DNA from: Ruegeria arenilitoris | Lineage (GTDB): Bacteria > Pseudomonadota > Alphaproteobacteria > Rhodobacterales > Rhodobacteraceae | Assembly (NCBI RefSeq): GCF_013035315.1 | Contig: NZ_WQHP01000007.1 | Location: 124,001 to 188,000, forward strand | Direction of reading: 5' to 3' | Length of the DNA stretch: 64,000 nt | In this document: positions 28,931 to 62,570 of the stretch, piece by piece | How positions within the stretch are numbered: position 1 is the first letter of the stretch | Layout: each line of letters begins with the position of its first letter | Notes under the pieces: generated by a model | Databases searched by the model: none | Told to the model about the DNA's origin: nothing | What the model saw: only the letters and a program-made list of their open reading frames with translations | Position numbers and translations under genes: made by a program

Positions 28931-30190
28931 GTGACAAGCAAGACGTTGTTTTTTCATGTTGGTACGGTCAAAACTGGGTCGACGTCGGTACAAAGAGTAT
29001 TGTGGGAGAACCGCGAAAATTTGCTCGCATATGGTGTGGCGTATCCTGCGGTTTCGGAGCCGAGACTCGACCTTCCTCGTTTCGCAAATGCCGACTTCCT
29101 GTTTCAAGAGGACTTCGACCGTGCTGCAGCGAGAGACATTCTAGAGTCGATGGGCGCGGAAAACCTCGTGATATCTGAAGAAGCGCTTTGAGGAAAGCCG
29201 CATGTCATGCTGGATTCAGTCTTCGAAGGTTTCGAAAAAGTCATCGTGGTCTACGTTCGCAACCCAGCCGATCTTGTCGCGTCCTGGGCCGCAGAGAACG
29301 CGGAACCCTATAATACCATGGCGAACGGATTGGGCAGCGAAGTAGATGGCCCCTTGCAGATAGATTTGGGTCTGGAAGAGTTCACATATAGATATATCGC
29401 AAATTTTCGCAGATTCCTTGATTCAATTGATGAAATGCGGGGAAAAGGTTTCCGAATTGTCTTTAGGCCATTCGAGAAAGACCAATTAGTTGGCGGGAAT
29501 GTGGTGTTGGATCTTTTTGATGTCATTGGGAAGGATCCAGAGCAGGTACCAGAGCTGAGGAATACCTGGGCCAATGTTAGCAGGTCGAGGAAATTCTGTG
29601 ACGTGTCCACGTATGTTTGGGAGTATGTGAAAGACACCCCTAATCGCGCGCGATACAGCTTGAGACTCGTAGAAAATGTTTATAACCAATGCGAAACGGG
29701 CGACGACCGGGCAGTGATTGCAACAGTGGACGACGCCTCGATCCGCAAGATCGTGGATGATTGTGCGCACATCGAAGAACGCATATCTCGCGATTATCTC
29801 GCAGGCCGTCCGCTCTTAAAAAACTCATTTCCAAAGGTCTATAGTACCGATCGGGAGCCTTACGCGCCTGTGTCTGAGCGAGAACTCGAGGCGCTGTGCG
29901 ATAAGGCTCTTGTAGAAATATTGATGAAAGAGGTTGCTGAGCTGAAAGATCTGAGGCAGAAAATGGTCGCGGCGTTTGTCGAAAAAGACCGAGTGATTTC
30001 CGAAAGGGATCATGCGATTGCTGAAAGGGATCATGCGATTGCTGAAAGGGATCATTTGGTCGCCCAAAAGGAGCAGGTGAACCTCGAAAGGGAGCAGGCT
30101 ATTGCTGAAAGAGATCATGCAATTCGATATCCCTGGAAGTACGTTTCTCGCGCTATTTCGGTGAGGACAGGTCGCAAACAGTCCAATTAG
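28931..30190 (+). pseudogene. Sulfotransferase with in-frame TGA and C-terminal ERD-repeat/YPWKY tail
   Basis: One frame of ~419 codons encodes a PAPS-dependent sulfotransferase interrupted by a single TGA at 29189 (codon 87). The 5'-phosphosulfate loop (HVGTVKTGSTS, residues 9-19) precedes the stop and the 3'-phosphate motif (YVRNPADLVASW, ~108-119) follows it. GTG 28931 has AGGAG upstream. The C-terminus has ERDHAIA-type heptads and then RYPWKYVSRAISVR, a tail shared with other proteins in this region. A TGG-to-TGA mutation would explain the stop. It could also be a sequencing error, or the distal ORF from the ATG at 29207 might be translated separately. Confidence 0.78.
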
Positions 30191-30617
30191 AGACGCCAGG
30201 CAAGTATCGCAAATTCGTTCTGGCTATTGCGAGGATTTTATTGGTTGAGGCGAAAGCGATTTCAGAAAACACTGGTTACTTTTCTTCCAAGACGTCGGTG
30301 CTCCTCAGTTCCAAGCGAAGCATCACGCCAACTTAAGCCTCTACGATTGATGAATATCATTCCACTAAGAACACGCTTGCCGTCCTCCCGAGGCTCTCCG
30401 CAAGACTTCGGAAATAACGGTTTCAGACGTGGCGATTGCGCGTCGATCAGCCAGAAGAAATCGCTCATGTTACCGCCCGGCGTCTGTGCCATGAAACAAG
30501 CCGCGCGACGAACATTAATGCGTCCTGAACCAAATTGGCATGAGTTCCGACAGAGGCCAAACTCAAGTCAAACCTTGTTCGTTTCTTACTTGGTGACTAA
30601 AGAAAAGGGACAACGCA
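30191..30617. other. Gene-poor stretch after the sulfotransferase
   Basis: About 430 bp. Short open frames are present but none has family similarity I recognise, and the base composition differs from coding neighbours. No terminator or promoter called with confidence. Confidence 0.35.
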
Positions 30618-32321: not shown

Positions 32322-32418
32322 GTAGCTCAAAATTCGAGGGTTCCCAGATAAAGATGTTGACAGCATCTTAATGAAAAATTGCGACTCCTTTTTTGGTATC
32401 GGTGCCGGTGGGCACTGA

Positions 32419-35258: not shown

Positions 35259-35263
35259 AAAAT

Positions 35264-36510: not shown

Positions 36511-36912
36511 ATGCAAATCCCGTTGGAGACACAGGCCATTTTGAAACAATGGGTTTCCAAATCTGTGGATTTCGTGAATTGTTTTCTGTTTTTTGATCAA
36601 AAGTTGTGGCTCGAATTCAGCGACCCAATTTGCGAGGTTAGGCCTCTAAGCGAAGAGTAAATTATGGTCATCTTTTCGGCCTTGAGCGCTGGTACTAATT
36701 CGGAGCGAAGCAATTTTGAGAGTCAACTTGCATCAGCAAGGCAAGAAACTGAACTGTTGCTTGTTGAGTTTGGAGCTTTGGAAATAGTGCGAGGTGCCGC
36801 CGCTGAGGCACTAAAAAACGACAGGCGGAAGTTTAACCACGCGAAACGTTACCCATGGAAGTATGTTCGCGATGTTTGGAGATTGCGCTTCAGGAATAAT
36901 GATGACTATTGA
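36511..36912 (+). pseudogene. Orphan coiled-coil/YPWKY tail ORF, probable 3' remnant of a larger gene
   Basis: A frame open from ATG 36511 to a TAA at 36658, then open again from ATG 36664 to 36912 (82 residues). The second part has no catalytic domain. It holds a helical charged stretch (SQLASARQETELLL...) and ends in HAKRYPWKYVRDVWRLRFRNN, the same tail found on the sulfotransferases and FkbM protein nearby. It could be the leftover end of a degraded tail-bearing enzyme or a free-standing tail peptide. No convincing ribosome binding site was seen before ATG 36664. Confidence 0.5.
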
Positions 36913-37491
36913 AATGTGTCGAGCGAGCGGATACGCGGCGAGAGAAGAAAGTTAACAATTGAAAACTGCTTTTTACTAAATCTTAATCAAAACCAAATTG
37001 ATTTAAAACTCCTAGGCTTTTTCGTAATTTGAACGGGCGTTCCTCAGCTTGCCGCAAACCTACTTCATTAGTAAACATCGACATTTAGCGCTTTGGCTTT
37101 GACTTCGGACATAACGTAATAGCGCACGATGATGGTGGGAGTATTTCACTGGATTGGGATTGAGCCACTTGGGGTAACCTTGAAGCAATAAAGGCGATCC
37201 CTTTCAATAACAGTCAACTAAAAACAGGTACTCGGTATTTTGTAGAGTGCTGCTCGTGGCCGTGTCCATTCTAGGTCGGCGGATTTTGATTGTAGCGCCG
37301 TTGATCACTGCGATCCGCTTCCTAACTGGGAAAGCCAGATTAATGGCTCTAATACGAAGACCATTGACAGCAGGACTCTCCCTCGGAGGGCTTCTGTCAT
37401 AAAAGCTTGAGGAAATTCTCAGCAGCGAGTAGCACTCAAGCACCACTCGGGCGTTCTTGACCCACAAAAACAATAAACTGAGGGAGTGAAA
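36913..37491. other. AT-rich gene-poor stretch before the FkbM gene
   Basis: About 580 bp, strongly AT-rich around 36,950-37,030. A minus-strand ORF (37204-37473) and short plus-strand frames lack features I recognise. Likely degraded DNA plus the promoter of the FkbM gene. No specific element supported. Confidence 0.35.
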
Positions 37492-38585
37492 GTGCCAAAA
37501 AAGAACAGAATAATAACTCGTTACGGTGAATTTTTGGTGCCGGACGTTTCAGACGCCGTCGTTCAGTCTTTGATGTACTACGGAGAGTGGGCGCAAGATG
37601 AGATTAATATCATGACATCGTTCGTACGATCTGGCGAAACGGTCTATGACATTGGGGCATTCGTAGGGACACATGCTTTAGCTTTTTCTGAGGCGGTAGG
37701 ACGGGACGGGCAAGTGTTCAGTTTGAAGCTTCTAGCGACACGTTCCAGTATCTCAGTGAAAACATAAAAAACGATTTTTCTGGGAACATCGTTGCGATCA
37801 ACAAAGCCGTCGCGGATAAAGGTGGGACCGCGAGTTTGGCTGCAGTGAACTCAGAATTGCCCGGTACTAACTCGCTGATTTCGGACAGTGGCGGAAACGC
37901 GGAAACAGTTGCTTTGGTCACACTCGATGCTATCGAGCTTCCAAGACCAGCCGTCATTAAGATTGATGTCGAAGGCGCCGAAATAAAAGTGCTGAAAGGC
38001 GCAGCGAAATTGATTTCTGAAAGCCGCCCCATAATTTTCTGCGAAGTCAACTGCCTGGCAGGATATGTAGACCTGATTAGATTTTGCCGCGGTGCAAATT
38101 ACCGTAGTTACGGGTCGATATCGCAGGCATTTAACAGAAACAACTTCAAAGGAGAGGCCAATAACATTTTTGGTGACGCTGCCGAGTGCATGCTTGTTTT
38201 GGTGCCGATGGAAAAGCGTGAACAACATGATGGAATTCTCAGAACATTGACAGAAATTGAGTCTGAGGATGATCTCGCGTTGCTTTTGTTACGCAAGCCG
38301 CAATATCTTTCGGATGTACTGGCAAACTCGCCAGCTGCGGCTAGTTGGATGACACCCGCCGTTTGTTTCGATGATGAATTTGAACAGGCGACAGAAATAA
38401 TTAATCTCTCAAGTGCCGAAAAAGAAAAAGTTCAGCAGGAAAATCGCGATCTACGCTCAGAACTGTCAAGGATGAACGCACAACTGGATCAGGCGAATAT
38501 TGATAGAGATCACGCACGGCGATATCCATGGAAATACCTGAAGGTCGCTTACCGGCTGCGTAGGGAAAAAAGAAAGTCAAGCTGA
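37492..38585 (+). pseudogene. FkbM-type methyltransferase with frameshift and C-terminal YPWKY tail
   Basis: The 5' part ends prematurely at about 37767, but the neighbouring frame continues the same protein: VFSFEASSDTFQYL after the break at a TTT run near 37722-37724. One lost T restores a single ~365-residue product. The SAM motif is VYDIGAFVGTHAL, and VIKIDVEGAEIKVLKGA with FCEVN is the diagnostic FkbM region. After a charged helix (QQENRDLRSELSRMN) it ends in RDHARRYPWKYLKVAYRLRRE. GTG 37492 has GAGGGAG 5 nt upstream. FkbM enzymes O-methylate sugars. Either a pseudogene or a homopolymer sequencing error. Confidence 0.8.
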
Positions 38586-38702: not shown

Positions 38703-41700
38703 CTAGTTCAATCGAATATAACCGACGGTTTCAAGAAAACGCTTAGCGAACTGCGTATCGTTCAATTCCGCTTCGTAGACTTTGCGAGCAGCGCGCCCCA
38801 TTTCCAAAAGTCTATCTTGGTTCTCGTAGGCCTCAATCATCTTTCTTGCCAGATCCGCGTCATCTTGCGACCTAAAAGAAAGCGAAGCTGCGCTCCCGAA
38901 TATCGCACCGACACCGACTTTATCACTTAAGATCAACGGCTTAACCAGTTGTGCGGCTTCGACTGCAACAAGTGAAAAGGAGTCGTCTCGCGAGCATGAA
39001 ACAAGAACGTCACATCGTGCTATCAAAGAAAGCGCTTCCTCATGTGAAAGGTCTCCTAAGTATGAAACTTCTGGGTGTTCTTTCATCATACTACTGATGC
39101 TCGCCCAGAATTCTTCGTTTCCTGGCGAAAGCTTGCCCGCAATTTCAAACCGACAGTTTTTTCGTATTTCTGGATTCAGCTTCTCAATTGCCCTCAGAAA
39201 AACATCCTGACCCTTTCGTGGTTCGATGGTTCCCAACAACAAGAATACAAGTTTTTCAGAACCTGCCTTCGTAGCGTGCTTTTCGTGCTCGCCAAGTGCG
39301 TCGGGCAGGCCGTTGTACAAAACCTGGCTTGAGGTGCCTTTTGGAAGAAACGTTTGAGCATATTCGCTCACACAAACGATGGTTACTCGCTCTCCAAAAG
39401 AAACGGACATATCAGCGAGGGCTTCCTCCAATAGTTGGCTCTCGTGCAGCCACCAAACTGTCTGAAGGATCGGAATCTGAGAAAGCTGTTCAACGACAGG
39501 TCGCATCACTACCGTATTGACCACCGCGAGGTCGAAGTTTTTTGCGAAGTTTTCAAACAAAAAGTGATTGGCTGCTATCGATGCGTCGATGATTACGACG
39601 ATGCCTTCCTTTTCAAACGCGGTTCTAAGTGGTCCGTCTGTAGGAGCTACAACAACCGGGAAACCGCCCGCCACTTTTACAGCTCTCGCGGCTTGCAGGA
39701 GCATATAGGGTGCGCCCGTGTTGGTTAGTTCATGTGAAACAAATAGGACATCTTTTCCAGAGTATTTCACAGAGGGTTCAGTGTGGTTTGCGTGAATCCG
39801 GAAATCGAATAAAAAGTCGGGATAAAGGGCGTTTTTCATTGTATCGGTAAAATATGGATCGGACGACACGTACTTTCCCCAGCGTTTTAGGCAAAAAATG
39901 TCGGCTTTGTACTTCGTTGATTTTGCCCCCCAAGAGTGATTACCGACATGAGTGAGCAATGAATAAGGCGTGTATACGCAACGCAACCCTTTTTCCTGAA
40001 TCTTGTAGCTCAAATCGAGGTCGGAGTGACCGTCAGGTGTATTTTTCGGATCAAATCCCCCGACTTCAAGGAACAAAGTCCGGCGTATTGCAAAACAGGC
40101 ACCCGAAAGTACCGAGACATTACGAACCAATCGGTTGTAGGCCGGGAACATTGCATTGCTGTCGTGCGGTAAGTTGTGACAGGCCGTTCCCGCCATTCCC
40201 GGAGTACCTGAAATCATGCCAGCATATTGGATTGTGCCATTTTCATATAGCAGCTGAGGTGAAACCCCACCAACGCCGGGAACCCAGAAATACTCGATCA
40301 AACGCTCGATCCAGTCCCGACTAATGGGAAACACATCGTCATTGTAGAACACAACAATCTCGCCTTGCGCGTTGCGAGCACCTTCGTTGCATTTATCCGA
40401 GAAATTGTAAGGTTTATCGTAGCGTATGAACCTTGCGACCGGCCAAAGCTTGTACTCTTCCTCTAAAGTCGAAGCGACCTTGCTGTTGCAAACAACGCAG
40501 ATTTCATAGTTTTCATAATCAGTGCCCTTCTTCAGGGCATCAAGCGCCAAGCGCAAGTTGCTGGCTGAATCCGAAGGGATTACGATCGAAACCCTTGACC
40601 CTTCCTCGGGAATTGCAACGCGGACCTGATTGGCATGTGCGAGAGGTTCAACATCACCCTGTATACCACGACGTTCCAGCGCGGCTTTTAGTGCAGCAAC
40701 ATTGCTGGTTCTCGCGTAGTCCTTGCCACCAGAAGCCGCTGATCCGCTTATTGCTCGCCAAAGATATAGAACGCGGTCAACGTGAACAATTTTTCGAGCA
40801 ACTTCTGACATTCGCAATGCAAGATCGTAATCCTGCGAAAAATCAAACTCGCTGCGAAACCCGCCAACCTTGCGTATCAAGGTGCTGCGGTACATAGTGA
40901 AATGGCCAGTAAGCATCGAATTGAACATAATCTCGGGCGACCAGCTTGGCTTGAAAATAAAGTCAAAAAAACGCAGCCCAGTTTTGTCATCAACTTTGCA
41001 CTCGTCGCTATATAGAAAATCTGTGTCCTCATCAGAGTTAAGGGCTTCAACCATCCAAAGAAGTGCGTCTGGCGTAAGTTCATCATCATGGTCCAGCAAC
41101 GCGCAGAACTCGCCTTCCGCCATGTCAAGAGCTCGGTTAGACGCCCCCGATATCCCGCTATTATTGTCCATAACATCAAACCGAATGCGCGAGTCTATAG
41201 CTGCATAGGATTCAATTAAAACGCGTTGTTCGTTGGTGGGGGAGCAATCATCTACAATACACAACTCCCAATTCTCATAGTATTGGTCTTGCACAGATTT
41301 GATCGCTCGGTGTAGCCATTTCTCAGGTGTCTTGTATACAGGTAAGATGATTGAAATTAAGGGCTTTTGGGGGAGCTCCGATATTAATTTCACTGCAGAC
41401 TTACCGTCAAGTTCAGCTTGCTGTCTCTCAAAAATCTGGCGTCCGATTTCATCACGATCAGCTATTGGAGCGGCGTCGGCCAATAGACGTTGTAATTCAA
41501 CTACAGGGTTGACTTGAAGGTAGTAGTTTGGGTTTCGTTTCGCAAAAGAAAACACGTCCTGGCGAAGTTCACCATTCTTCTTAAAAAAAGCGCGACGAAA
41601 TTGAGGGCGTATTTCATTTTTGGAGCGGGGCATAGTTATCGCCCGGAACCAGCCGCGTGGTTTTCCATTGCGATGGAACGCGAGTCGTCGAAGGGAACTT

Positions 41701-43115
41701 TGTGGATGAGTCACATCCTCCCTAGGCGTGAGACGTTCATTGTATTTTGACTGATCACCAACAAACAAAGCATCATCAATTTGGTCAGGGTTACGTTTTT
41801 TGGCACTGTTCGAGAAACGAGCCCGAGTTCTTTCCGAAAAGAACTTCGAGTTTTGAGCTCTATTCAGCAGCTTGAAGGTAAGGTGTCGATTTAATTGCTT
41901 AAAGGGGCGCCGTTGCGCCGCCAATAAAGCGGAAGATAAATTTGTCGCTGTTTGCTGTGCAGCTTGAAGGTCTACGGTGCGTGCGTCTAGAAATTTCTGC
42001 ATTGATTCCAGTTCGACTACCTGTTTTTCGATAACAGACTTCTGGGCAAAATCCTGTTGGCGTAGGGTGTTGATAATCGATTGCATATCGCTCGCCTGAT
42101 CGTGCGCGCTTTTGAGCAGCTGAACAAGCTCGTCGTTTTTTGCGGCTCTAACTTCGCCGCGCACAGAATTGGGTCCAAAGGGACTTTCGGAGGTGCGGGG
42201 CCCAACAAATTTCATACCATTAATGTCCGGGTTGATATTTGGCTCCACCACTGCTTCGGTGCCAGCGACGATCCGCTGCCCAATCATGTTTTCGCCCTCA
42301 GCGCCTTTTCTTACCATGCAGATCGAGTTAATAAACCGCACTTCTGAAATTCTATCCAGCGTGGGGATGTCAAAGTCGGCGCCATAAGTATCGGCGAAAT
42401 AATCCAATATTCTACCGGGATTTATATCCGCCCCCCAGTGCTCGCGATTCACGAAGTCCGCGAGTCGTTTGAAGAAGCTTACTGACGAAAACGGTGCTTC
42501 GATGCCACCTTGAAAGTCATCCCAATAGCTGCAATGTAAATCCTCCGCGATGAAAAGACCTCCATCAGACATCATTGGGAAATACAAAGCAAAGCTTCGA
42601 ATGATGTCCTTGGAAACATGCGAACCATCGTCGATAATGATATCGAAGTTATCACTGATGTCTTTGATTTTTTTATGTGTCTCGGTTGAGTTTGCGTCGC
42701 CTATCACTACTGAAATCCGACTATCATTGAACGACAGTTTTTCAGCGGTTTGTTCTATTTCACATCCCACAATGCATTCTGCGTTTGGGAAGAATTCGGC
42801 CCATACTTCTAAAGATCCGCCATTCTGGATGCCAATTTCGAGAATCCGGACCGGCTTTTCTTTGAATGGATGAAAGACTAGTTCATAAAAGTCCAAATAT
42901 GACTTCCACTTATCACTAACTTTACCCGCATGTTGAGCATACAGGTCAATAAGCCCATATTCTTTCGTGTGATCCATCAAGTCTTGGCCTTTAAGTGTGA
43001 TGTTTTCTTCGTTTCGCCCAACGCGTGTTCGCGCAGTCATTTCAACTTCGACAAGGTTAGCCAAGAAAAATCTTGGATACCATGCTCTGAAGGTACGTAG
43101 GTGCAGTTCAGTCAA
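38703..43115 (-). CDS. Giant fused enzyme: methyltransferase - coiled coil - GT2 - GT2 - GT4
   Basis: A 1470-residue protein. Residues ~85-270 are a SAM methyltransferase-like domain (ILEIGIQNGGSLEVW, FDIIIDDGSHVSKD), of the type linked to CmcI. A helical region (~320-400) ends in a basic QRRPFKQLNRHLTFKLL segment. A GT2 domain spans ~586-800 (LISIILPVYKTPEKW, LLDHDDELTPDAL) and a second ~841-1070 (RVSIVIPSDS, VVFYNDDVFPI, GGFDP). A GT4 domain spans ~1120-1470 (VLFVSHELTNTGAPY, LGTIEPRKGQDV, E-rich end). It could add two or three sugars and methylate the chain. The first codons are uncertain: TTG 43115 is the longest, ATG 43040 and ATG 42977 are alternatives. Confidence 0.85.
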   Translation of the reverse strand: MTELHLRTFRAWYPRFFLANLVEVEMTARTRVGRNEENITLKGQDLMDHTKEYGLIDLYAQHAGKVSDKWKSYLDFYELVFHPFKEKPVRILEIGIQNGGSLEVWAEFFPNAECIVGCEIEQTAEKLSFNDSRISVVIGDANSTETHKKIKDISDNFDIIIDDGSHVSKDIIRSFALYFPMMSDGGLFIAEDLHCSYWDDFQGGIEAPFSSVSFFKRLADFVNREHWGADINPGRILDYFADTYGADFDIPTLDRISEVRFINSICMVRKGAEGENMIGQRIVAGTEAVVEPNINPDINGMKFVGPRTSESPFGPNSVRGEVRAAKNDELVQLLKSAHDQASDMQSIINTLRQQDFAQKSVIEKQVVELESMQKFLDARTVDLQAAQQTATNLSSALLAAQRRPFKQLNRHLTFKLLNRAQNSKFFSERTRARFSNSAKKRNPDQIDDALFVGDQSKYNERLTPREDVTHPQSSLRRLAFHRNGKPRGWFRAITMPRSKNEIRPQFRRAFFKKNGELRQDVFSFAKRNPNYYLQVNPVVELQRLLADAAPIADRDEIGRQIFERQQAELDGKSAVKLISELPQKPLISIILPVYKTPEKWLHRAIKSVQDQYYENWELCIVDDCSPTNEQRVLIESYAAIDSRIRFDVMDNNSGISGASNRALDMAEGEFCALLDHDDELTPDALLWMVEALNSDEDTDFLYSDECKVDDKTGLRFFDFIFKPSWSPEIMFNSMLTGHFTMYRSTLIRKVGGFRSEFDFSQDYDLALRMSEVARKIVHVDRVLYLWRAISGSAASGGKDYARTSNVAALKAALERRGIQGDVEPLAHANQVRVAIPEEGSRVSIVIPSDSASNLRLALDALKKGTDYENYEICVVCNSKVASTLEEEYKLWPVARFIRYDKPYNFSDKCNEGARNAQGEIVVFYNDDVFPISRDWIERLIEYFWVPGVGGVSPQLLYENGTIQYAGMISGTPGMAGTACHNLPHDSNAMFPAYNRLVRNVSVLSGACFAIRRTLFLEVGGFDPKNTPDGHSDLDLSYKIQEKGLRCVYTPYSLLTHVGNHSWGAKSTKYKADIFCLKRWGKYVSSDPYFTDTMKNALYPDFLFDFRIHANHTEPSVKYSGKDVLFVSHELTNTGAPYMLLQAARAVKVAGGFPVVVAPTDGPLRTAFEKEGIVVIIDASIAANHFLFENFAKNFDLAVVNTVVMRPVVEQLSQIPILQTVWWLHESQLLEEALADMSVSFGERVTIVCVSEYAQTFLPKGTSSQVLYNGLPDALGEHEKHATKAGSEKLVFLLLGTIEPRKGQDVFLRAIEKLNPEIRKNCRFEIAGKLSPGNEEFWASISSMMKEHPEVSYLGDLSHEEALSLIARCDVLVSCSRDDSFSLVAVEAAQLVKPLILSDKVGVGAIFGSAASLSFRSQDDADLARKMIEAYENQDRLLEMGRAARKVYEAELNDTQFAKRFLETVGYIRLN

Positions 43116-46528: not shown

Positions 46529-48565
<2,037 letters not shown>

Positions 48566-48677
48566 GGTGCTAGGCCTTTTGGCCCAGCCAATGTAAGTTC
48601 AACTTTTGCCTGATCTGATTGCCTCAACCTAGGAACAAAAAGTGCCGGATCCCTAGGATTCTTAGATGGTGTTGGGG

Positions 48678-49547
48678 TCAATCAGTGAGCAGCGAATGGA
48701 GGTAAGCGCCGTAGGTCGACTTTCCAAAAAGACGTGCGCGTTTCTTGAGGGCTTCATCGTCGATCCACCCATTACTCCAGGCGATCTCATCAAGGCTACC
48801 AGTCTGCATTCCCTGACGCTCGGTCAGCGTTCTAACGAAGCTTCCTGCCTCCAAAAGCGTACCGTGTGTGCCGGTATCCAGCCATGCAAAACCCCGGCCC
48901 ATCGTTTGAACATCAAGCAGGTTTTCATCGAGATACATTTGCAAAAGCGACGTAATTTCGAGTTCGCCGCGTTCAGAGGGTTTGATTTGCTTGGCCCGTG
49001 CGGGCGCATCACCGTCCAGAAAGTAAAGGCCCGTGACGGCATAGTTTGAGGGAGGCTGTTCTGGCTTTTCGATGATCTGCCGCACTTTTTGCCCTTCAAA
49101 AGCAACCACTCCGTAACGCTCGGGGTCGGCCACACGGTACGCAAACACCGTGCCACCTTTCTTGTTGGCATCAGCTTGAGCTAGAAGGTTTGGAAGACCG
49201 TGGCCGAAGAAGATGTTGTCCCCCAGGATCATTGCCGAAGGAGCGCCAGCGAGGAAGTCTTCAGCCAAGGTGTAAGCTTGTGCAAGACCGTCTGGGGAAT
49301 TTTGCACGATCCATGTCAATGAAAGGCCATATTGGCTGCCGTCACCAAACAGCCGGATAAACTGTTCTTGGTCCTGTGGCGTTGTAATGATTGCAACTTC
49401 GCGGATACTCGCCAGCATTAACACGCTAAGCGGATAAAAAATCATTGGCTTGTCATAAACAGGCAGCAGCTGCTTGGACACGGCTATTGTGATTGGATAA
49501 AGGCGGGTTCCGGAGCCGCCGGCAAGAATAATGCCTTTACGTTGCAT
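48678..49547 (-). CDS. rmlA: Glucose-1-phosphate thymidylyltransferase
   Basis: A 289-residue nucleotidyltransferase, first step to dTDP-L-rhamnose (glucose-1-P + dTTP to dTDP-glucose). The GGSGTRLYPIT motif, KPMIFYPLS and GDNIFFGHGL segments are textbook RmlA. It is the last gene of the rmlCBDA operon, 3 bp after rmlD. It converges with glf; an imperfect hairpin (about 48568-48588) lies between them. Confidence 0.95.
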   Translation of the reverse strand: MQRKGIILAGGSGTRLYPITIAVSKQLLPVYDKPMIFYPLSVLMLASIREVAIITTPQDQEQFIRLFGDGSQYGLSLTWIVQNSPDGLAQAYTLAEDFLAGAPSAMILGDNIFFGHGLPNLLAQADANKKGGTVFAYRVADPERYGVVAFEGQKVRQIIEKPEQPPSNYAVTGLYFLDGDAPARAKQIKPSERGELEITSLLQMYLDENLLDVQTMGRGFAWLDTGTHGTLLEAGSFVRTLTERQGMQTGSLDEIAWSNGWIDDEALKKRARLFGKSTYGAYLHSLLTD

Positions 49548-49550
49548 ATG

Positions 49551-50429
49551 CTAACCTTTCAAAACTGATTTTCTGGTCTGGTTCAGTTGTGCAAGCACTT
49601 CGGCCAGCCCGGCCTTCCAGTTCGGGCGCGAAATCCCGTAGATTTCTTCCAGCCTTGAGCAGTCCAAGCGCGAATTCTTAGGCCGTACTGCAGGGGTCGG
49701 ATATGCGCTGGTCGCGATATCCTCAACGGTTATCGCAAGACCAGACTGGAGAAAGACTTCTCGTGCGAAATCCGCCCAGCTCGTATCAGGGGAACCGGAA
49801 AAATGAAATATACCTCCCTCCGCTTCAGGGCTCTTCGCTGCCATTGTGAGTAGAGCCGAGGCAATGTCCGCGGCAGGCGTCGGGCCGCCTGCCTGATCGG
49901 CAACAATGGCCAGGCGGTCTCGCGTTTCCGCCAGACGAAGCATCGATTTCACGAAGTTATTGCCGTGCGCCGAGAAAACCCAACTCGTACGAACAATTGC
50001 GTGCCAGCCACCGGCCTCAGCCACTTGTCTTTCGCCGTCAAGTTTAGTTCTTCCATAAACGCCAAGCGGTGCGGTTGGGTCATCTGTGGTTCGTGCAGTG
50101 AAACCAGATCCATCAAAGACATAGTCTGTCGAGATGTGCAGAAACGGAAGTTCCCGTTGCGCCGCGGCTCGGGCCATGGCCCCTGGCGCATCAGCGTTCA
50201 CACATTGTGCAAGTGCTTTTTCGTCTTCAGCTTTGTCGACGGCTGTATAGGCGGCTGCGTTGATTACCACGTCTGCATCCGTACTGAGCACACGCTGCGC
50301 ACATACTTCCGGGTTTGACAGATCGGCTTCCGCGCGACCCAAGGCCTCGACGACGATGTCCCGGTCAGCGGCTTGACTTTGTAATTCAGTGGCAACCTGA
50401 CCATTTCTCCCGAAGACTAGAATCTTCAT
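49551..50429 (-). CDS. rmlD: dTDP-4-dehydrorhamnose reductase
   Basis: A 292-residue short-chain reductase, final step to dTDP-L-rhamnose. The nucleotide motif [18 protein letters not shown] and the catalytic YGRTKLDGE (Tyr-x3-Lys) are present. Its start overlaps the rmlB stop by 4 nt. Confidence 0.94.
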
Positions 50430-51466
50430 TTGGCCACACCAAGGCGGCTACCTACACCTTCGCGCGCCAAAAGCGCATTCAGCCACTCCTCGTTGTCCAG
50501 GTACCATCGGACTGTCTGTTCTAATCCTGTTTCCGGGGTATAGGCCGGGTGCCAGCCAAGATCTTCAACAATCCTCGAGGGGTCAATCGCGTAGCGCCGG
50601 TCGTGTCCGGGGCGATCAGTAACGAAGGTGATCTGTTCGGCATAGGTCTTGGTTGCGGGCCGAAGTCGGTCAAGGATTGCGCATAGCATTTTTACGAGAT
50701 CAAGATTGGTCATCTCGTTTTCGCCACCAATGTTATAGCTTGAACCTACCGCGGCTTTTTCGAGTACCAGCAACAGTGCCTCAGCATGGTCCTCGACGTG
50801 CAACCAGTCACGTATGTTGTCGCCTGTGCCGTAAATAGGAATCGGCTGTCCAGACAACGCTTTGAGTATTACTACAGGGATCAGCTTTTCGGGAAACTGA
50901 TACGGGCCGTAATTGTTGGAACAGTTCGTCAGGATGATCGGCAACCCATAGGTCTCATGCCACGCGCGGACTAAGTGGTCCGAGCTTGCCTTAGAAGCCG
51001 AGTATGGAGAGTTCGGTTGGTACGGGCTGTCTTCTGTGAAAAACCCTGTTTCCCCTAGAGAGCCAAATACCTCGTCTGTGGAAATATGGTGGAATCGAAA
51101 ATCGGCCGGTTTGTCTTGATCGGTCCAGTAGGCCCGTGCCGCTTCTAGCAGAACATAGGTGCCAGTGACGTTCGTTTCGATAAACGCTGCCGGACCGTCA
51201 ATTGAGCGATCCACATGACTTTCGGCAGCCAGATGCATGATCGCATCCGGCTTGTGTTTTTTAAGTATGGACGCCATGGCAGACGCATCGCGAATATCCG
51301 CTTTTTCGAAAGCATAGCTTGGATCATCAGCCACCATAGCGACGTTGTGGAGGCAAGCCGCGTAGGTTAAGGCGTCTACGTTGACGACCGAATGGCCCTG
51401 AGAAATTGCACGGCGAACAACGGCAGACCCAATAAACCCGGCGCCTCCGGTGACCAAAAGTTTCAT
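50426..51466 (-). CDS. rmlB: dTDP-glucose 4,6-dehydratase
   Basis: A 346-residue extended SDR enzyme making dTDP-4-keto-6-deoxyglucose. The NAD motif [17 protein letters not shown] and [12 protein letters not shown] (Tyr-x3-Lys) are visible, and [14 protein letters not shown] is diagnostic. It overlaps rmlC and rmlD by 4 nt each. Its product could also feed the DegT aminotransferase in this region. Confidence 0.95.
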
Positions 51467-52032
51467 TTAGCGTCCTCAATAGTGAAGGGAGATTCCTGTT
51501 CGGACAAGTGTAGAGCCACAGCATCCTTATCCGAAATCTTGATCTCAGCCGGCTTCAGCGGCCATTCAATACCAATTTCCGGGTCGTCCCAACGTACGGC
51601 ACCTTCGGTTTTGGGAGCGTAGGTATCTGAGCATTTGTAAACAATCTCAGTATCAGGCTCTAGCGTCATGAAGCCATGCGCAAACCCCGCCGGGACCAAA
51701 AGCATTCGCCCATTCTCAAAACTCAGTTCTTCGCCGACCCACTGACCAAAGGTCGGCGAACCTTTGCGAATATCCACAGCAACATCAAACAGCCTACCGC
51801 GACCGCAGCGCACAAGCTTGGCTTGGGCACTTGGCGGTGCCTGAAAGTGTAGCCCCCGGACAGTTCCCATTTCACTGGACATTGAGTGATTGTCTTGGAC
51901 AAAAACCGTGTTGATGCCGGCGGTAACAAACTGATCTCTGTTGTATGTTTCTTCAAAGAACCCTCGGTGGTCACCAAACCTTTTCGGTGTCACCAACTTA
52001 ACGGCAGGTATTTTTAGGGGCCGAACATCCAT
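51463..52032 (-). CDS. rmlC: dTDP-4-dehydrorhamnose 3,5-epimerase
   Basis: A 189-residue cupin epimerase. The catalytic His is in [17 protein letters not shown], followed by [14 protein letters not shown] and [11 protein letters not shown]. First gene of the rmlCBDA operon; the promoter must lie in the gene-poor stretch upstream. Confidence 0.94.
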
Positions 52033-53563: not shown

Positions 53564-53672
53564 GAAGTTCTAAAGTAGTTGACCAAAAAAACGTTATCCG
53601 GGCGGGTTTCCAAAAGTTTAGGTTCTCGCGCATCTCTCGCATGACGCTCTCTTCACTAAGAAGCACGAGCAG

Positions 53673-55712: not shown

Positions 55713-55935
55713 GATGCTATATTGAGGGTTCGTGGAAAGCGCAAAATTACCAATATGCAGTAATTTCTGCAGCGGGCAGAGATTATCAAGATCAATCTGA
55801 TCAATACGTCGTGGGATGTCGCTGGCCAGATGAAGCAATATCAGGAAGAAGCCTGCTTTTTGAACCTTAGACCGCTTATCCCAACCAATTGGTGCTCCAG
55901 GTTGATCGTGGAACCCTCAGATCCGAACTTCCGGA

Positions 55936-56973
55936 CTAAACCGCATTATGTTCCCGAGCCACGGATTCCGGGAATTTTTCCCGCGTACGGTTGGCGAATG
56001 CGACCAATGACAACATCACGGGTACTTCAACCAACACTCCGACAACCGTGGCCAATGCGGCGCCTGAGTTCAGACCGAACAGGCTAATAGCGACGGCGAC
56101 GGCCAGTTCAAAGAAGTTTGACGTGCCGATCATCGCGCAGGGGGCGGCGATGCGGTGGGGAACTTTCAGGGCGTAGGCCGCGCCATACGCGAGGGCAAAG
56201 ATGCCGTAGCTTTGGATCAGGATCGGTACTGCGATCAGTACGATGACCAGTGGTTTGGCCAAGATCGTTTGGCCCTGTAGCCCGAACAGGATGACGACGG
56301 TGGCGATCAACCCCACTACCGACCAGGGTTTGACGCGGGCAGAGAAGGTATCGATTGCCTCTTGCGAGCCAAGCTTCTTGCGGGTGATCAGACCGGCGAT
56401 GAGGGGTAGCACCACGTAAAGCACAGTTGCCAGAACCAGAGTCTGCCAAGGAACTTGGATGTCAGTTACGCCCAGCAGGAAGGCCACGATGGGGGCAAAT
56501 GCCACCACCATAATCAGGTCGTTCACAGATACTTGCACCAACGTGTAGGTCGCATCCCCTTTGGTCAGCTGCGACCAAACGAACACCATCGCGGTGCAAG
56601 GGGCCGCGCCCAGCAGGATCAGTCCGGCGGTGTATTGGGCTGCGTCAGCAGGCTCAATCCAAGGCGCAAAAACATAGTCAAAGAACAGAACCGCCAGAAA
56701 GGCCATGGTGAACGGTTTTATCAACCAATTGACCACCAATGTCACGATCAACCCGCGGGGCTGGCGTGCAACGCCTGCCACCGCCCCAAAATCGACGCTG
56801 ACCATCATCGGATAGACCATGGCCCAGATCAGAACGGCCACCACCAGATTAACGCTGGCCACTTCGGCAGAGGCGACAAGTTGAACCAATCCGGGGGCTG
56901 CCAACCCGATCAGGACGCCGCCAACCATGGCGAAGGCGACCCAGACGGTCAGGTAGCGTTCGAAAATGCTCAT
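55936..56973 (-). CDS. acr3: Arsenite efflux permease of the ACR3 family
   Basis: A 345-residue protein with about ten membrane helices. The ACR3 hallmark [13 protein letters not shown], with the conserved cysteine, is near residue 120, and the later [35 protein letters not shown] region matches the family. It extrudes arsenite. Last gene of the ars operon, overlapping arsJ by 4 nt. Confidence 0.94.
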
Positions 56974-58235
56974 GTGTACGCCTCATTCGGCTGATCGGTC
57001 AGCTTGCCGGAAGTCAGGGCGGCCAGCGCGACCATTATGGCTGCTGTACCCAAAACCAAGGCAAGCCCGCCGATTTGATATGTCAGACCTGACAAGACAG
57101 TGCCGACAAGGCGGCCCGTTGCGTTGGCCATGTAGTAGAAGCCCACATCCATTGTCACACGCTCGGACTTGGTGAAGGCTAGGATCAGGTAAGAGTGCAG
57201 CGATGAATTGACCGCGAAGATGGCGCCAAAGGCCAAAAGTCCAATGACCAACGTGATGGTCAGCCACGGTTCGGGACCCGAGGACAGCAGAACTGCAACC
57301 GTCAATGCGGCAGGCACGCAGAACAGGGCGGCGGCCCAGTTGCGCGCCGCGTGGATCAGCTCACCTTCTGTGCGTTCGGTTGCGCTTAAAATCTTCGGCG
57401 CGCTGGCCTGAACGGCTCCGTACAGGATGACCCAGACGGCCATGAAGGTGCCGATCATGAAGAACGCGGCGCGGTTGCCCTCTTCGGTGCCGTCGGAGAG
57501 GACGGCGTAGAAATAGATCGGGATGCCGACCACAAACCACACGTCCCGCGCACCGAACAGGAACACCCGCGCGGCCGACAGCCAGTTCACGTTGGATGAT
57601 TTCGAAAACACCTCGGAGAATTTCGCGCCTTTGCGCCCTTTGGGCAAGCCAGGGGGCATCAACACGAAGACGGCGACCAGAATAACCGCCAGCACGATCG
57701 CCATAGCCAGCGTTGCCCACATAAAGCCCACCGTTGCCAGCAAGCCAGCGCCCAGAAGGAAACCGAGGCCCTTGACCGCGTTCTTCGACCCGGTCAGCAC
57801 TGCGACCCAGCGGAACAGCCCGCCGCCCGTCGCGGGGGCCAGCAGTTTCACGGCGGATTTCGAGGACATCTTGGCCAGATCTTTGGCGATACCGCTGGCA
57901 CCCTGGATGATCATGACAAAGACAACTTTGGCCGGAATAGCCCAGTTAGGGTCTAATTGTGTCAGCGCCAGAAGGGCTCCGACCTGTAATGCCAAGCCAG
58001 CATACAAGGCTGACGTCAACCCAAAGCGCGCGGCGATCCAGCCAGCAGCCAGATTGGTGCCCATGCCCGCGATTTCATAGAGGACAAACAGGTAAGCCAG
58101 CTGCACCGGCGAGAACCCCATCGTATGAAAGTGCAGCAGCACCAGCATACGCAGGGCCCCGTCGGTCAGCATAAAGGCCCAATAGGCCGCCGTGACCGCG
58201 ATATAGGCCGACAAACCTTCGGGCCGGTCGGTCAC
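56970..58235 (-). CDS. arsJ: Organoarsenical efflux MFS transporter ArsJ
   Basis: A 421-residue MFS protein. By family knowledge ArsJ exports 1-arseno-3-phosphoglycerate, formed by the neighbouring GAPDH from arsenate. The start [26 protein letters not shown] and [31 protein letters not shown] loop fit ArsJ. It overlaps both neighbours by 4 nt. Confidence 0.92.
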
Positions 58236-59230
58236 AGCGAGGCACCAACCATCAGGGCCACATCGACCAGACGATGCGCATAGCCCATCTCGTTGTCATA
58301 CCAGGCGTAGATCTTCACCTGCGTGCCGTTCACCACCATGGTCGAGGGCGCATCCACGATCGAAGAGCGTTCGTCATTGGTATAATCGGTCGAGACCAGC
58401 GGTCGGGTTTCATAACCCAGAATGCCTTTCAGCTCGCCCTCTGCAGCGGCCTTGAAAAAACCGTTCACTTCTTCAACGGTGGTTTCGCGTTCAACCTCGA
58501 AAACGCAATCGGTCAGCGAGGCGTTCAGCAGTGGCACGCGAACTGCATGGCCGTTCAGCCGCCCTTTGAGCTCAGGATAGATCAGAGTGATCGCGGTGGC
58601 CGAGCCTGTGGTGGTCGGAATCAGCGAATTCAAAGCCGACCGTGCCCGACGCAGGTCCTTGGCGGGGCGGTCCACGATGGTTTGCGTGTTGGTCACGTCA
58701 TGGATGGTGGTCATCGACCCGTGGCGAATACCCAGATTGTCGTGGATCACCTTGACGACTGGGGCCAGACAGTTGGTGGTACAGGACGCCGCTGTGACGA
58801 TCTGGTGGACAGCCGGATCATAGGTGTCGTCATTGACGCCCACGACGATATTCGCGGTCGGGCCATCCTTGACCGGAGCCGAGACCACAACCTTCTTCAC
58901 ACCGGCCTCGAAATAGGGGGCCAGCTTGGCCTCGGTCTTGAAGACGCCGGTGCAGTCGATCACCACGTCAACGCCGTCCAGTGGCAGTTCGTTGAGGTCC
59001 TTGGTGCCGACAAATGGCAGGCGGGTGCCATTGATCGTGACGCTGTCGGCGTCATGGTCAAACGTGGCATCCCAGCGCCCGTGCACGGTGTCAAACTCCA
59101 GCAGATGCGCGTGCATCTCGGGGTCGCCAACGCCATCGTTGATCCAGGCGATTTTCGCCCCTTTCTCCAGCAGTGGCTTGAGGGCAAGTTTCCCCATGCG
59201 GCCAAGGCCGTTTACAGCGTAAGTAGTCAT
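58232..59230 (-). CDS. ArsJ-associated glyceraldehyde-3-phosphate dehydrogenase
   Basis: A 332-residue GAPDH. The nucleotide motif [14 protein letters not shown] and catalytic Cys150 in SCTTNC are present. In ars operons this enzyme adds arsenate to glyceraldehyde-3-phosphate, giving 1-arseno-3-phosphoglycerate for ArsJ. Its ars-operon position supports this rather than a glycolytic role. 4-nt overlaps on both sides. Confidence 0.93.
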
Positions 59231-60060
59231 TTCGTGTCCTCGGTAGACGTCCTGCCGATGTCATCGACAGCAGATTGAAGCGCGATCCGATCAAGGCTTT
59301 CGACCGGCAAAGAGGTAAACGCTTCAATCCGTCGCTTGAGCGCGCCGTAAGCGTTTTGAAAGGCGAGGCTTTTCTCGGCATCCGTGCCGTCGGCCTTGAC
59401 CGGGTCGGGCATGCCCCAATGGCCGCTGATCGGCTGACCTTCCCACGCCGGGCATTCCTCGTTCGCGGCCTGATTGCAGACGGTGAAAACGAAATCCATC
59501 TCGGGCGCGCCGGGTGCTGCGAATTCGGACATATGTTTGGACCGCAGAACCGATGTGTCATGCCCCTTGTCGCTTAGGACCTGCACGGCAAATGGGTTGA
59601 GCTCGGATGAAGGCTGCGTCCCGGCGGAATAGACGTTGAACCGATCACTGCCCAGCGACCGCAGCAGGGATTCGGCAAAGATCGAGCGGGCAGAATTGCC
59701 GACGCACAAAAACAATACGTTGAACTTCCGATCGGTCATGGTCTCAGTTCCTTTGGAAAAGGGCATGCAGATATCAGGGCGACCACGGCAGCAATCGACG
59801 ATCAGAAAGTCGAGCATTTGCTGCACGTTGTTCATTTCAATCGAATAGAGCAGAGACGTTCCCGACCTCTCCTGTTTCACCAGCCCGGATCGCTGCAGCG
59901 CGTTCAGGTAGTTCGACAGGGTGCTTGCCTTGATGCCCAGCTCTTCCGCCAGCTCTCCGGCCGGGACGGTGTCAGGAAACCGTCGCATTAACATGCGAAA
60001 CACGGAAATGCGCTGCGGGTGGCCCAGGATGGACAATTGGTTGGTGATCTCTTCTATCAT
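59227..60060 (-). CDS. ArsR-ArsC fusion: arsenic-responsive repressor plus arsenate reductase
   Basis: A 277-residue two-domain protein. Residues 1-~95 are an ArsR winged-helix repressor ([31 protein letters not shown]). Cys90, Cys91 and Cys98 form a CCx6C As(III)-sensing candidate. Residues ~113-260 are a low-molecular-weight-phosphatase-type ArsC with C119VGNSAR125 (CX5R), Cys195/Cys203 and HWGMPDP with the catalytic Asp. Arsenate would be reduced and the product sensed on one chain. First gene of the operon, with a palindrome just upstream of the ATG and no clear ribosome binding site, so translation may be leaderless or weak. Confidence 0.9.
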
Positions 60061-60080
60061 ATTTCATGAAATATTGAAAT
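60061..60080. promoter_or_regulatory. Palindromic ArsR-type operator candidate
   Basis: A perfect 12-bp palindrome, ATTTCATGAAAT (60061-60072), continues as ATTGAAAT, so the 20 bp also read ATTTCA-N8-TGAAAT. It directly abuts the arsRC start codon, an ideal position for repression by the encoded ArsR domain. Inferred from position and symmetry. Confidence 0.6.
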
Positions 60081-60234
60081 AAAGATTAGACAGCAACCCA
60101 CAATCGGCGCTGTTACAAAAGTTTCGCAATGGAGATCAGACACCGACGCCGTTTGACATGAGAGATCGGCGCTACAAATCGCGCAGAACGAGACTTGCGC
60201 GTATCCGAACGAAGGTTTAAACGAGCCTTCGCTT

Positions 60235-60310
60235 GCCTCAATAGCTCAGCTGGTAGAGCAGGTCCTTCGTAAGGACAAGGTCGGGGGTTCGAGTCCCTCT
60301 TGAGGCACCA
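60235..60310 (+). tRNA. tRNA-Thr (anticodon CGT)
   Basis: A complete 76-nt cloverleaf. Acceptor GCCTCAA/TTGAGGC, D-stem GCTC/GAGC, anticodon loop TTCGTAA (CGT reads ACG), T-stem GGGGG/TCCCT (one weak pair), discriminator A and encoded CCA. Confidence 0.94.
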
Positions 60311-60452
60311 TAAGATTGCTATTAATGTAATAGTATCAGTGACTTGTATTTTTGATCCTGTTAAGGCCCCCCAAATAGTCCCCCAAGAGATCTATGGTGG
60401 ATGAGTCGCTTGATCCTTTTGGAATCTCCAACAACGGACGTCCCGGATGTAA

Positions 60453-60707
60453 TCAGTCCAGCGTAAAGTTGACTATGAAGCGGTCTGTATCCACCTCATC
60501 ATCGTCCTGTTTCCGCGGCAAAGCTTTGCCATGCCCAAATGGTAGTAGAAACATTGCTATCTTGATGGCCTTGTCATGATTGCCCTTATCGACGGCGCCT
60601 TTCAACTGTCCAAACAAGTATTGCATCGGTTCAACGTAGTTCCGACGCGATGCTAAATCTTCGTACCGTTTCATACGGTTACGCTTGAGTTTGTCCCGCT
60701 TTGACAT
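60453..60707 (-). CDS. Small basic protein, weakly phage-like
   Basis: An 84-residue protein (91 from an upstream TTG). It has a basic N-terminus (KRDKLKRNRMKRYEDLASRRN) and PMQYLFGQLKGAV...AIKIAMFLLPFGHG, faintly like the conserved end of phage small-terminase-type proteins. The similarity is by memory only. Position next to tRNA-Thr fits a relic of an integrated element. No ribosome binding site is obvious. Function unknown. Confidence 0.45.
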   Translation of the reverse strand: MSKRDKLKRNRMKRYEDLASRRNYVEPMQYLFGQLKGAVDKGNHDKAIKIAMFLLPFGHGKALPRKQDDDEVDTDRFIVNFTLD

Positions 60708-60765
60708 GCGAAGATTATAGCTATCCAACGCCTAATAGGAAAGAAACGACATTCGTTCTGACCGC

Positions 60766-60849
60766 AAAGCCGACATTCATGCTAAGTGCAGCGAGTGTCT
60801 GCTTCGAACCCGCTGTGACTATGCTGCGCACTGTGCTAATGTCGGCTTT
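60766..60849. repeat. 84-bp palindromic element
   Basis: Perfect 12-bp terminal inverted repeats, AAAGCCGACATT (60766-60777) and AATGTCGGCTTT (60838-60849). Similarity extends inward imperfectly for about 15 more bases. The rest of 60,729-61,214 holds no gene I recognise. It could be a MITE-like or extragenic palindromic repeat. Confidence 0.65.
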
Positions 60850-61214
60850 TCCAATACAGACGGGTAATCTAGACCGTTTTAAGCATAATCGTCCAGCAGC
60901 TATTGAGGGATGGCGCAGTTTTTTCGCGGGGCAAATGGCAGCCACACTGTCCATCCGGGGACGAGTCCGAGCGCACCTGACAGCACCCGTCTGAGCTTTT
61001 TTCGCGCTTGACAAAGGCAGGAAAAGTCCTTTCCGGTGCGAGCGATCTGACTTAAAGATGTCGATGCGGTGTTGATACGGTAGCAAGAATGCTATTTGGC
61101 CTAGATTACGCATCTGGAACCGGATTTTCCAACCGCAGCGCGAGTTCGTCCGAAAACGATACTATTAACGCAGCGCGAAGACACGAACCGCTTGAAGCTC
61201 GGAGGAGCATTTAA

Positions 61215-62570
61215 TTGACGCAAGGGAATGACAGTATCGTGACATCGGGCGATGAGCGAAGCACCGTTTATCTTCATATCGGATTTTCTAAGACCGGAAC
61301 GACTGCGCTTCAGCAGTTCTTCTACAACAATCGCGACCACTTTGACAGGCAAGGTATCTATTATCCGGACAATTTCCGCAATCCGGAAAACGGCTACTCC
61401 GACTGGGGCCATCACATCCTGAGCCACAAATGGGGCGGCTGGCTGAACCCAAAGGTCTTTCCGATCACACCCGACGATGCGTGGGACAGGACTGCAGAAC
61501 TGATCGCAGGCAAACCTGGAAGTTACATCATCAGCAGCGAGCGATTTCAGGATATCCTCGGTAAGCCAGACAGCGCAGAAATACTGAGATTCATTGAGAA
61601 AAAGGTTGCGCCCTCGCGTCTGGCTATTGTCGCCTATATCCGTCGGCAGGATGACTTCGCTGAATCCCACTACAAAGAGTTGGTGAAGAACAATTTTCAC
61701 AAAGGAACCTTCTCGGAGTATCTCGCCAATCTGCCCGCTTTCTTTCGTTACGACGAGTTCCTGGAGAGTTGCTGCGAAGTCGTGGCGAAGGAGAATATCA
61801 TTGTGCGAGTGTACAATAGGTCGCTGTTCCCTGGCGGCAGCATCTTCGCAGACTTCCTTGACGCCATCGGAACAGGTGAACTAGGAGCCAACCTGCACCA
61901 CGAAGCCATAACCAACGCATCGCTGAACTCGGCACTTGCGAGCCTTATGGGGAACAAGCAAATGAAACCTCTCTGGGCCGAGAAAACACTTCGTCACGAG
62001 CTCTATCAGTTCTTCAATAACCGAACCGACCTGGTCGGTGCCAACGCTCCGCTGCTGTCGGAGGGCCAGCGCGCTGATATCTTGGCCCAGTTCGCGGACT
62101 CAAACGCCCGGCTATCTGAACGATTTCTGCCTACGCAGCAGGCACGAGCACTCGAACCTCCAGCGGCAACCGGCGTTGAATCCTTCAACGAAAACAGACC
62201 TATATACTCGACGAACGACGTTAAGGATCTGCTCAAGGCCGCCTCACAGGAACGCGATGTCGCCTTACAGGAACGCGATGTCGCCTTACAGGAGCGCGAT
62301 GTCGCCTTGCAGGAGCGCGATGTCGCCTTGCAGGAGCGCGATGTCGCCTTGCAGGAGCGCGACGTCGCCTTGCAAGAGCGCGATGTCGCCTTGCAGGAGC
62401 GCGATGTCGCCTTGCAGGAGCGCGATGTCGCCTTACAGGAGCGCGATGTCACCTTGCAGGAGCGCGATGTCGCCTTGAAGGAGCGTGATCATGCGCGGAA
62501 ATATCCTTGGAAATATATTCGGTACTCTTGGAATATTCGGTACTCTTGGAAAGCGAACCCAAAAAAGTAG
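61215..62570 (+). CDS. Sulfotransferase with 12-unit heptad repeat and C-terminal YPWKY tail
   Basis: A 451-residue protein. The TTG start is strongly supported by GGAGGAG 7 nt upstream. The PAPS 5'-phosphosulfate loop is LHIGFSKTGTTALQ (residues ~20-33) and the 3'-phosphate motif is AYIRRQDDFAESHY (near residue 138). Residues ~344-427 are 12 units of a (L/S)-[QK]-E-R-D-[VH]-A-type heptad, likely a long charged helix. It ends RDHARKYPWKYIRYSWNIRYSW, the same tail as on two other proteins of the region. Predicted to sulfate a surface glycan; acceptor unknown. Confidence 0.85.
   Translation: MTQGNDSIVTSGDERSTVYLHIGFSKTGTTALQQFFYNNRDHFDRQGIYYPDNFRNPENGYSDWGHHILSHKWGGWLNPKVFPITPDDAWDRTAELIAGKPGSYIISSERFQDILGKPDSAEILRFIEKKVAPSRLAIVAYIRRQDDFAESHYKELVKNNFHKGTFSEYLANLPAFFRYDEFLESCCEVVAKENIIVRVYNRSLFPGGSIFADFLDAIGTGELGANLHHEAITNASLNSALASLMGNKQMKPLWAEKTLRHELYQFFNNRTDLVGANAPLLSEGQRADILAQFADSNARLSERFLPTQQARALEPPAATGVESFNENRPIYSTNDVKDLLKAASQERDVALQERDVALQERDVALQERDVALQERDVALQERDVALQERDVALQERDVALQERDVALQERDVTLQERDVALKERDHARKYPWKYIRYSWNIRYSWKANPKK
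62244..62495 (+). repeat. 12 x 21-bp in-frame tandem repeat
   Basis: Twelve 21-bp units encoding consecutive heptads, differing at only one to three bases except the last. The period equals seven codons, so copy-number change keeps the frame. Near-identity of units points to recent expansion by slippage or recombination. Confidence 0.95.

Follow-up and report, generated by a model that had tools for sequence, protein, structure and literature searches.

Four genes in a 64,000-nucleotide stretch of the Ruegeria arenilitoris genome (contig NZ_WQHP01000007.1, positions 124,001 to 188,000; hereafter the window) end in the same short protein module, a Tyr-Pro-Trp-Lys-Tyr (YPWKY) box with a basic C terminus. 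Iterated profile searches extend this set to 19 tails in 15 genomes. Fifteen of the 19 follow a methyl-, sulfo- or glycosyltransferase-like domain, with glycans as putative substrates, and in most carriers a charged, helix-prone stalk stands between the enzyme and the box. The tail may be a shared C-terminal docking module that holds glycan-decorating enzymes at an assembly site on the inner membrane, in the manner of the O-antigen protein WbdD, a reading to which we give an even chance.

A common C terminus on unrelated enzymes

The initial annotation reported four loci with alike ends, and each of the four does have its box, in frame and near a stop codon (Table 1). Each frame closes with HAx[RK]YPWKY and a basic end, leaving 17 to 19 residues after the Pro-Trp (PW) pair, and the four tails agree without exception at H, A, Y, P, W, K, Y and one R. 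Three other YPW matches occur in the six frames of the window, none of which continues with K-Y. Chance matches in composition-biased helices were named as a possible refutation. With 4300 genes assumed per genome, only 0.0018 YPWKY boxes are expected in the last 30 residues of proteins (0.14 in the six frames of 4.39 Mb), and four within one 34-kb stretch are therefore not due to chance. Tail profiles run over the 4.39-Mb genome itself gave no further convincing copy.

Because the two sulfotransferases of the window are related to one another and the window alone shows just two enzyme classes, the case for unrelated catalytic domains rests on other genomes, where it holds. The 19 carriers comprise eight sulfotransferase-like proteins, three S-adenosylmethionine (SAM) methyltransferases of family PF08241, two FkbM methyltransferases, one glycosyltransferase of family 2 (GT2), one PF13489 methyltransferase and four without an assigned family. 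Classes were assigned by Pfam (PF00535 at E = 2.8e-31, PF08241 at 2.4e-16, PF13489 at 2.5e-6, PF05050 at 6.4e-12 and 2.8e-7) or, for most sulfotransferases, by alignment; no kinase family was matched among the carriers. When the catalytic parts are compared by blastp, the sulfotransferases are linked together, as are two orthologous methyltransferases, and the two FkbM proteins meet only at E = 0.10. Between carrier classes no match is better than E = 0.3.

The eight sulfotransferase-like carriers are likely to be sulfotransferases, judging from a P-loop-like motif, Pfam matches below threshold (PF13469 at 1.2e-5 in G521, short of the family cut-off, and 0.037 in G607) and a profile of the relatives of the intact window protein encoded from 61215, whose best solved-structure match is the sulfotransferase 3rnl (E = 0.005). 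That protein by itself gave no Pfam sulfotransferase match, and the remaining scanned carriers of this class matched no sulfotransferase family. One of the eight, in G660, is apparently split across two adjacent frames (L171 and L103).

A sulfotransferase profile matched 37 of the 54 genomes of the genus and returned 30 loci, 25 of which lack the tail; the five tailed loci are the profile's own members, and the 25 include L171, the first part of the G660 gene, which has its tail in the next frame. Since most of these related loci have no tail, the tail is a module and not the end of one family. A paralogue just past the end of the window (L196:3268-4470, minus strand) is 35% identical to the 61215 protein and keeps the charged stalk, and it finishes in a related-looking end without PW (SGYAYLKAVFRHRQRGR).

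Across the 19 tails P and W are found in every case, the flanking Y(-1) and K(+2) in 17 each, R(-2) in 16 and R(+11) in 15. Positions +4 and +8 are hydrophobic on average, and A or S occupies +7 in 15 tails. All but one end 10-19 residues past PW, the exception (G521) ending 45 past it. Counted from P to the end of the stretch given, every one of the 19 tails has a net charge between +2 and +7, and over the last 16 residues it is at least +4 in 14 of the 19, compared with 11% of 228 background open reading frames (ORFs); the G521 tail entered in this comparison ended before its true end.

The boxes had also been described as following a charged helical repeat, and for most tails this is so. 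The run free of Pro and Gly before PW has a median length of 41 residues (5 in background ORFs) and reaches at least 25 in 14 of the 19 tails (4% of background), while the charged fraction of the 30 residues before the box is 0.38 as against 0.24. In two window genes the stalk heptads are encoded by 21-bp tandem repeats. A single-sequence AlphaFold2 model of the 61215 protein has a 97-residue helix at 333-429, where block values of the predicted local distance difference test (pLDDT) reach 96. The helix breaks at the Tyr-Pro step at 430, and a short low-confidence helix at 431-446 starts at the box. The prediction for the GT2 carrier of strain KLH11 was uninformative (pLDDT 36).

Distribution of the tail

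The annotation proposed a profile search with the tails, and such searches find them on sulfotransferases, FkbM, GT2 and other methyltransferases in other genomes. The exact pattern HAxxYPWKY has 13 matches in 84,980 genomes. Ten of these, whose frames have only 12 to 74 residues, were discounted as chance matches, and three lie in frames of 224-377 residues, all C-terminal and all in Rhodobacteraceae (Lutimaribacter, Defluviimonas and KLH11). When a profile built from the window's four tails was run on these three loci, picked out beforehand by the exact DNA pattern, it scored their tails at E = 3e-10, 6e-9 and 2e-5 (Z = 40000). In KLH11 a second tail was recognised by eye on the neighbouring gene.

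A scan of the order at E <= 0.1 picked up 30 of 390 genomes. Apart from the R. arenilitoris genome itself, four carriers were kept (G565, G607, G557 and G521), and 25 matches were dropped, mostly short frames or one conserved protein of 870-930 amino acids (aa) with ELDHAKREG. The profile used here missed G536, which a later profile scored at 4e-9, so the early scans under-count. Within the genus, 29 of 54 genomes matched at E <= 0.5, and 11 were kept, the source genome included, all at E < 1e-3. Seven of these genomes were not represented in the 12-tail profile that found them, and their tails are all C-terminal and end 10-18 residues after PW.

The tail is thus present in 10 of the 53 other genomes of the genus, with KLH11 counted inside it (G664 and G396 give identical coordinates). 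Among 263 genomes that represent the family's other genera, none gave a convincing tail with the 19-tail profile, in a scan that also included the source genome and one other of its genus. Fisher's test gives p = 8e-9 for the difference, in a comparison that ignores shared ancestry and draws on two different profiles. None of 384 other genomes in a sample of the class carries a convincing tail. The carriers outside the genus are G565, G521, Lutimaribacter and Defluviimonas, and convincing tails were seen only in Rhodobacteraceae.

Weaker matches were set aside. The four-tail profile gave three matches in other genomes among 394 of the family (E 0.005-0.007): one is internal, 148 residues before the stop (L008), one is near the end of a 404-aa frame with the composition of a non-coding frame (L007), and one is in a 64-aa frame whose match strand was not read (L009). 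The 19-tail family scan gave seven more (E 0.008-0.013), including tail-like letters in short frames of 52 aa (L201, HRNPWRHLNRSWSRR) and 71 aa (L204, RRNPWEYLATA). All three matches of the class scan outside the source genome were rejected, the best of them (L160) being antisense to a frame with a membrane segment. A single tail-like query at E up to 10 matched 92 of 295 family genomes, and the inspected loci outside the source genome look like composition noise; the inspection covered one strand, with some loci unseen in the match frame. Searches of plasmids by tblastn with tail-like queries gave nothing, a result of little weight for such short queries. Several genomes of the genus have a 66-aa frame containing RKYPWHLLR[RH]AFR (L105, L106, L108, L126 and L128), which is probably not a tail.

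Fourteen carrier neighbourhoods were considered, and in ten of them one to three neighbours each were scanned. The annotation expected the tails to cluster near glycan genes, and some do: scanned neighbours are a GT2 protein at L145, a methyltransferase with RgpF at L147 and RgpF at L151, and the UbiA-type prenyltransferase at L152 is perhaps also of glycan type. This is not general, with six scanned loci lacking such a neighbour. The scanned neighbours of L144 include a Gfo/Idh oxidoreductase, and the KLH11 locus (L143) holds two adjacent carriers. A pooled scan of 101 of 126 neighbouring frames, which alone covered L142, L146 and L153, found PF00535 in five members and short-chain dehydrogenases in six. 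Because some carriers have no glycan family among their scanned neighbours, a partner encoded next door is not a general arrangement.

A possible docking role and its alternatives

A carrier would work in three parts. The catalytic domain would transfer sulfate, methyl or sugar onto a glycan, and the charged helical stalk, which varies in length, would carry the active site away from its anchor. At the end would stand the Tyr-Pro break, followed by a short basic helix of the pattern PWKY-hydrophobic-x-x-[AS]-hydrophobic-[KR]-x-R. This end could tether the enzyme to the cytoplasmic side of the inner membrane, at a shared place of assembly for lipid-linked surface glycan, by binding a conserved protein partner with the help of electrostatic contact with the membrane. 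The membrane, the partner and the shared site, and whether the dock is lipid or protein, are what we infer.

The closest parallel is in the chain terminators of WbdD and WbbB type from Escherichia coli O9a and Klebsiella, which join a modifying enzyme to an extended helical spacer of variable length. PMC11231755 gives the order of WbdD as catalysis, coiled-coil spacer, and a C-terminal membrane helix with a polymerase recruitment site, and together with PMC3482155 it states that spacer length and polymerase recruitment set chain length. The YPWKY tail would correspond to the membrane-associated C-terminal part of WbdD, and we propose by analogy that the module works similarly, holding decorating enzymes at the assembly site. 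The likeness is in the order of parts, and here, unlike in WbdD, one short box is common to unrelated catalytic families that include sulfotransferases. Topical searches of the open-licence literature listed nothing judged relevant beyond PMC11231755.

The annotation also named a SWRLTAPLR-like C-terminal motif of other glycosyltransferases as a possible analogue. It exists, with five matches in 4 of 142 genomes of the class, and like the YPWKY box it follows a charged, helical-looking stretch, has Trp followed by a basic residue, and is C-terminal in three of four cases (internal in one). The YPWKY box differs in having Pro-Trp-Lys after Tyr and in being found convincingly only in Rhodobacteraceae. 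The sequence S-W-R-x-T-x-P-L-R is absent from the 19 tails, and hhalign detected no homology between the two profiles (probability 0.2%, from only four SWRLTAPLR-type rows). Six strings drawn from the two motifs, YPWKY and SWRLTAPLR among them, were absent from the open-licence papers searched. In PEP-CTERM-like sorting signals a transmembrane helix and then a basic end come after the motif; no such helix is apparent in the 19 tails, whose post-box segments have mean Eisenberg hydrophobicities of -0.62 to +0.18 (no dedicated predictor was run).

The tail might instead be a lipid anchor only, a basic segment rich in Trp and Tyr that holds peripheral enzymes to the inner membrane without any protein partner. 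The excess of basic ends over background favours this explanation, and Trp and Tyr suit the membrane interface. An amphipathic moment no higher than in shuffled sequences argues against it, as do the invariant P-W and the near-invariant Y, K, Y and R positions, a degree of conservation that probably exceeds what a mere lipid anchor would need; we regard it as possible though somewhat doubtful. It is unlikely that the tail is an oligomerisation end in which the stalks bundle into dimers or trimers capped by the box. The long helical stalk would fit such a role, and PMC3482155 describes a C-terminal helix of WbdD that forms a trimer and a fragment without it that goes from trimer to monomer. Yet the box is common to unrelated enzymes whose stalks differ greatly in length and sequence, and a cap that pairs with itself would not need to be common to different enzymes.

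Recombination between repeat-rich 3' ends could also have spread a neutral tail at the DNA level. The 21-bp tandem repeats of two window genes are of this kind, and two sulfotransferases that are 23% identical in their catalytic parts (G650 and G676) agree at 49 of 63 bases of the tail and, W and M aside, in 11 of the 15 codons for identical residues. This resembles two orthologous pairs (11/16 and 9/14 codons) and hints at tail exchange, and one window pair shares 7 of 11 codons; these high pairs are the best of many, with no correction made for that. When all tail pairs are pooled, however, identical residues use the same codon in only 37% of cases, and in the six pairs of the window, with W and M excluded, they do so in 20 of 58, so that synonymous sites have drifted while the residues stayed. 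Such low codon sharing indicates that the box is kept by selection on the protein and not by recent copying, which leaves the DNA-level explanation quite improbable. The annotation's mobile tag stands as a module found on unrelated families. Evidence of recent copying is suggestive for one or two pairs only and is not seen for the window tails together. Least probable of all is that the tail is the ordinary end of a single enzyme family, the other refutation foreseen: 8 of the 19 carriers are sulfotransferase-like, but the GT2, FkbM and other methyltransferase carriers and the 25 tailless sulfotransferase loci refute it.

Several observations weigh against a docking module. The protein partner is a postulated one, and no glycan family was found among the scanned neighbours of L140, L141, L144, L148, L149 and L150. 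The conservation counts are biased by profiles that select conserved tails, and the second KLH11 tail, included by eye, scores only E = 0.32 with the four-tail profile. The Pro/Gly-free run is just 15-22 residues in 5 of the 19 tails, and the stalk heptads do not look, by eye, like a classical a/d coiled coil. The annotation predicted a helix ending in an amphipathic basic segment. The long helix and the basic segment are both there, but per-tail amphipathicity is no better than in shuffles (mean z 0.4, 11 of 19 positive; column profile p = 0.22), the post-box helix has block pLDDT values of 58 and then 47, and the catalytic part of the same 61215 model is below 50.

If docking at a single site is right, the tail would offer a sequence handle on the enzymes that decorate a roseobacter surface glycan, among them orphan genes located away from the cluster. 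It could also serve as a transferable tag to bring enzymes to the place of glycan assembly. In these bacteria, surface glycans that are sulfated or methylated play a part in biofilm formation, association with algae and contact with phages. A bolder and again unlikely proposal is that YPWKY acts as the address code of a multi-enzyme glycan-decoration platform in roseobacters, which any tagged catalytic domain could join. The number of heptads, changeable by slippage of the 21-bp repeats, would then set the reach along the glycan, and the tail-only frame at 36661-36912 could be a free adaptor or a competitor for the dock.

Tailed genes and other features of the window

Only the 61215 gene is intact among the four tailed genes of the window, and the interruptions of the others may reflect mutation or assembly error. 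The first gene is read in two frames (28895-29191 and 29207-30190) separated by an in-frame stop ending at 29191, and with the low-complexity filter off, sulfotransferase homologues align on both sides of this stop in one frame. The FkbM gene has a frameshift near 37.7 kb, and its second frame matches PF05050 (6.4e-12) and TIGR01444 (1.3e-17). The tail of the 61215 gene contains a perfect 18-bp tandem duplication at 62515-62551 (IRYSWN twice). The short frame at 36661-36912 has no recognisable catalytic domain. Forward-strand matches of carriers to it cover tail and stalk only, the longest spanning 75 residues (E = 0.049) and another spanning 17 residues of the same stretch (E = 0.011), and one reverse-strand match (E = 0.26) lands outside the frame.

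Table 1. Positions of the tailed genes, stalks and boxes in the window, and carriers of the tail by class
Feature	Position	Strand	Remarks
Sulfotransferase-like gene with tail	28895..30190	+	In-frame stop inside; P-loop-like motif HVGTVKTGSTS before the stop
Stalk of this gene	29995..30124	+	21-bp tandem repeat, 6.2 copies, ERDHAIA heptads
Box and basic end of this gene	30128..30187	+	
YPWKY box 1	30128-30142	+	In frame; stop ends 30190
83-codon "orphan" frame	36661..36912	+	Short helix-prone stretch and tail HAKRYPWKYVRDVWRLR; tail profile E = 1.1e-15, from a profile that includes this tail
YPWKY box 2	36850-36864	+	In frame; stop ends 36912
FkbM methyltransferase gene with tail	37477..38585	+	Frameshifted; frames 37477-37767 and 37692-38585
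Tail of the FkbM frame	38502..38582	+	RDHARRYPWKYLKVAYRLRREKRKSS
YPWKY box 3	38523-38537	+	In frame; stop ends 38585
Sulfotransferase-like gene with stalk and tail	61215..62570	+	451 aa, intact; aligned with relatives
Stalk of this gene	62240..62489	+	21-bp tandem repeat, 11.9 copies, QERDVAL heptads; inside predicted helix 333-429
Box and basic end of this gene	62502..62567	+	
YPWKY box 4	62502-62516	+	In frame; stop ends 62570
Sulfotransferase-like carriers (8)			Two window genes, G607, G650, G676, G663, G660, G521
SAM methyltransferase PF08241 carriers (3)			G565, G557, G536 (86% identical orthologue of G557)
FkbM carriers (2)			Window gene, G669
KLH11 carriers (2)			One GT2, one PF13489 methyltransferase
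Carriers without assigned family (4)			Window 36.7 kb, Lutimaribacter, Defluviimonas, G659 (contig end)

Other genes of the window encode a GT25 protein, an exporter-type ABC transporter and, at 38703-43115 on the minus strand, a 1470-aa protein with a methyltransferase-like domain, a linker, two GT2 domains and a GT1/GT4-type domain. The same kind of order is described in PMC11231755 for ORF6 of Klebsiella O7 (methyltransferase, coiled coil, two GT2). The YPWKY tail profile gave no match to the 1470-aa protein; its linker has RRPFKQL, which looks faintly box-like by eye. A UDP-galactopyranose mutase gene (glf) lies within 47408-52032, with about 79% DNA identity to a plasmid-borne Phaeobacter glf, and dTDP-rhamnose-like genes can be seen by eye beside it. 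An apparent arsenic operon, also read by eye, occupies 55936-60060 on the minus strand and comprises a permease, a major-facilitator protein, a GAPDH-like gene, and ArsR with a phosphatase-like gene.

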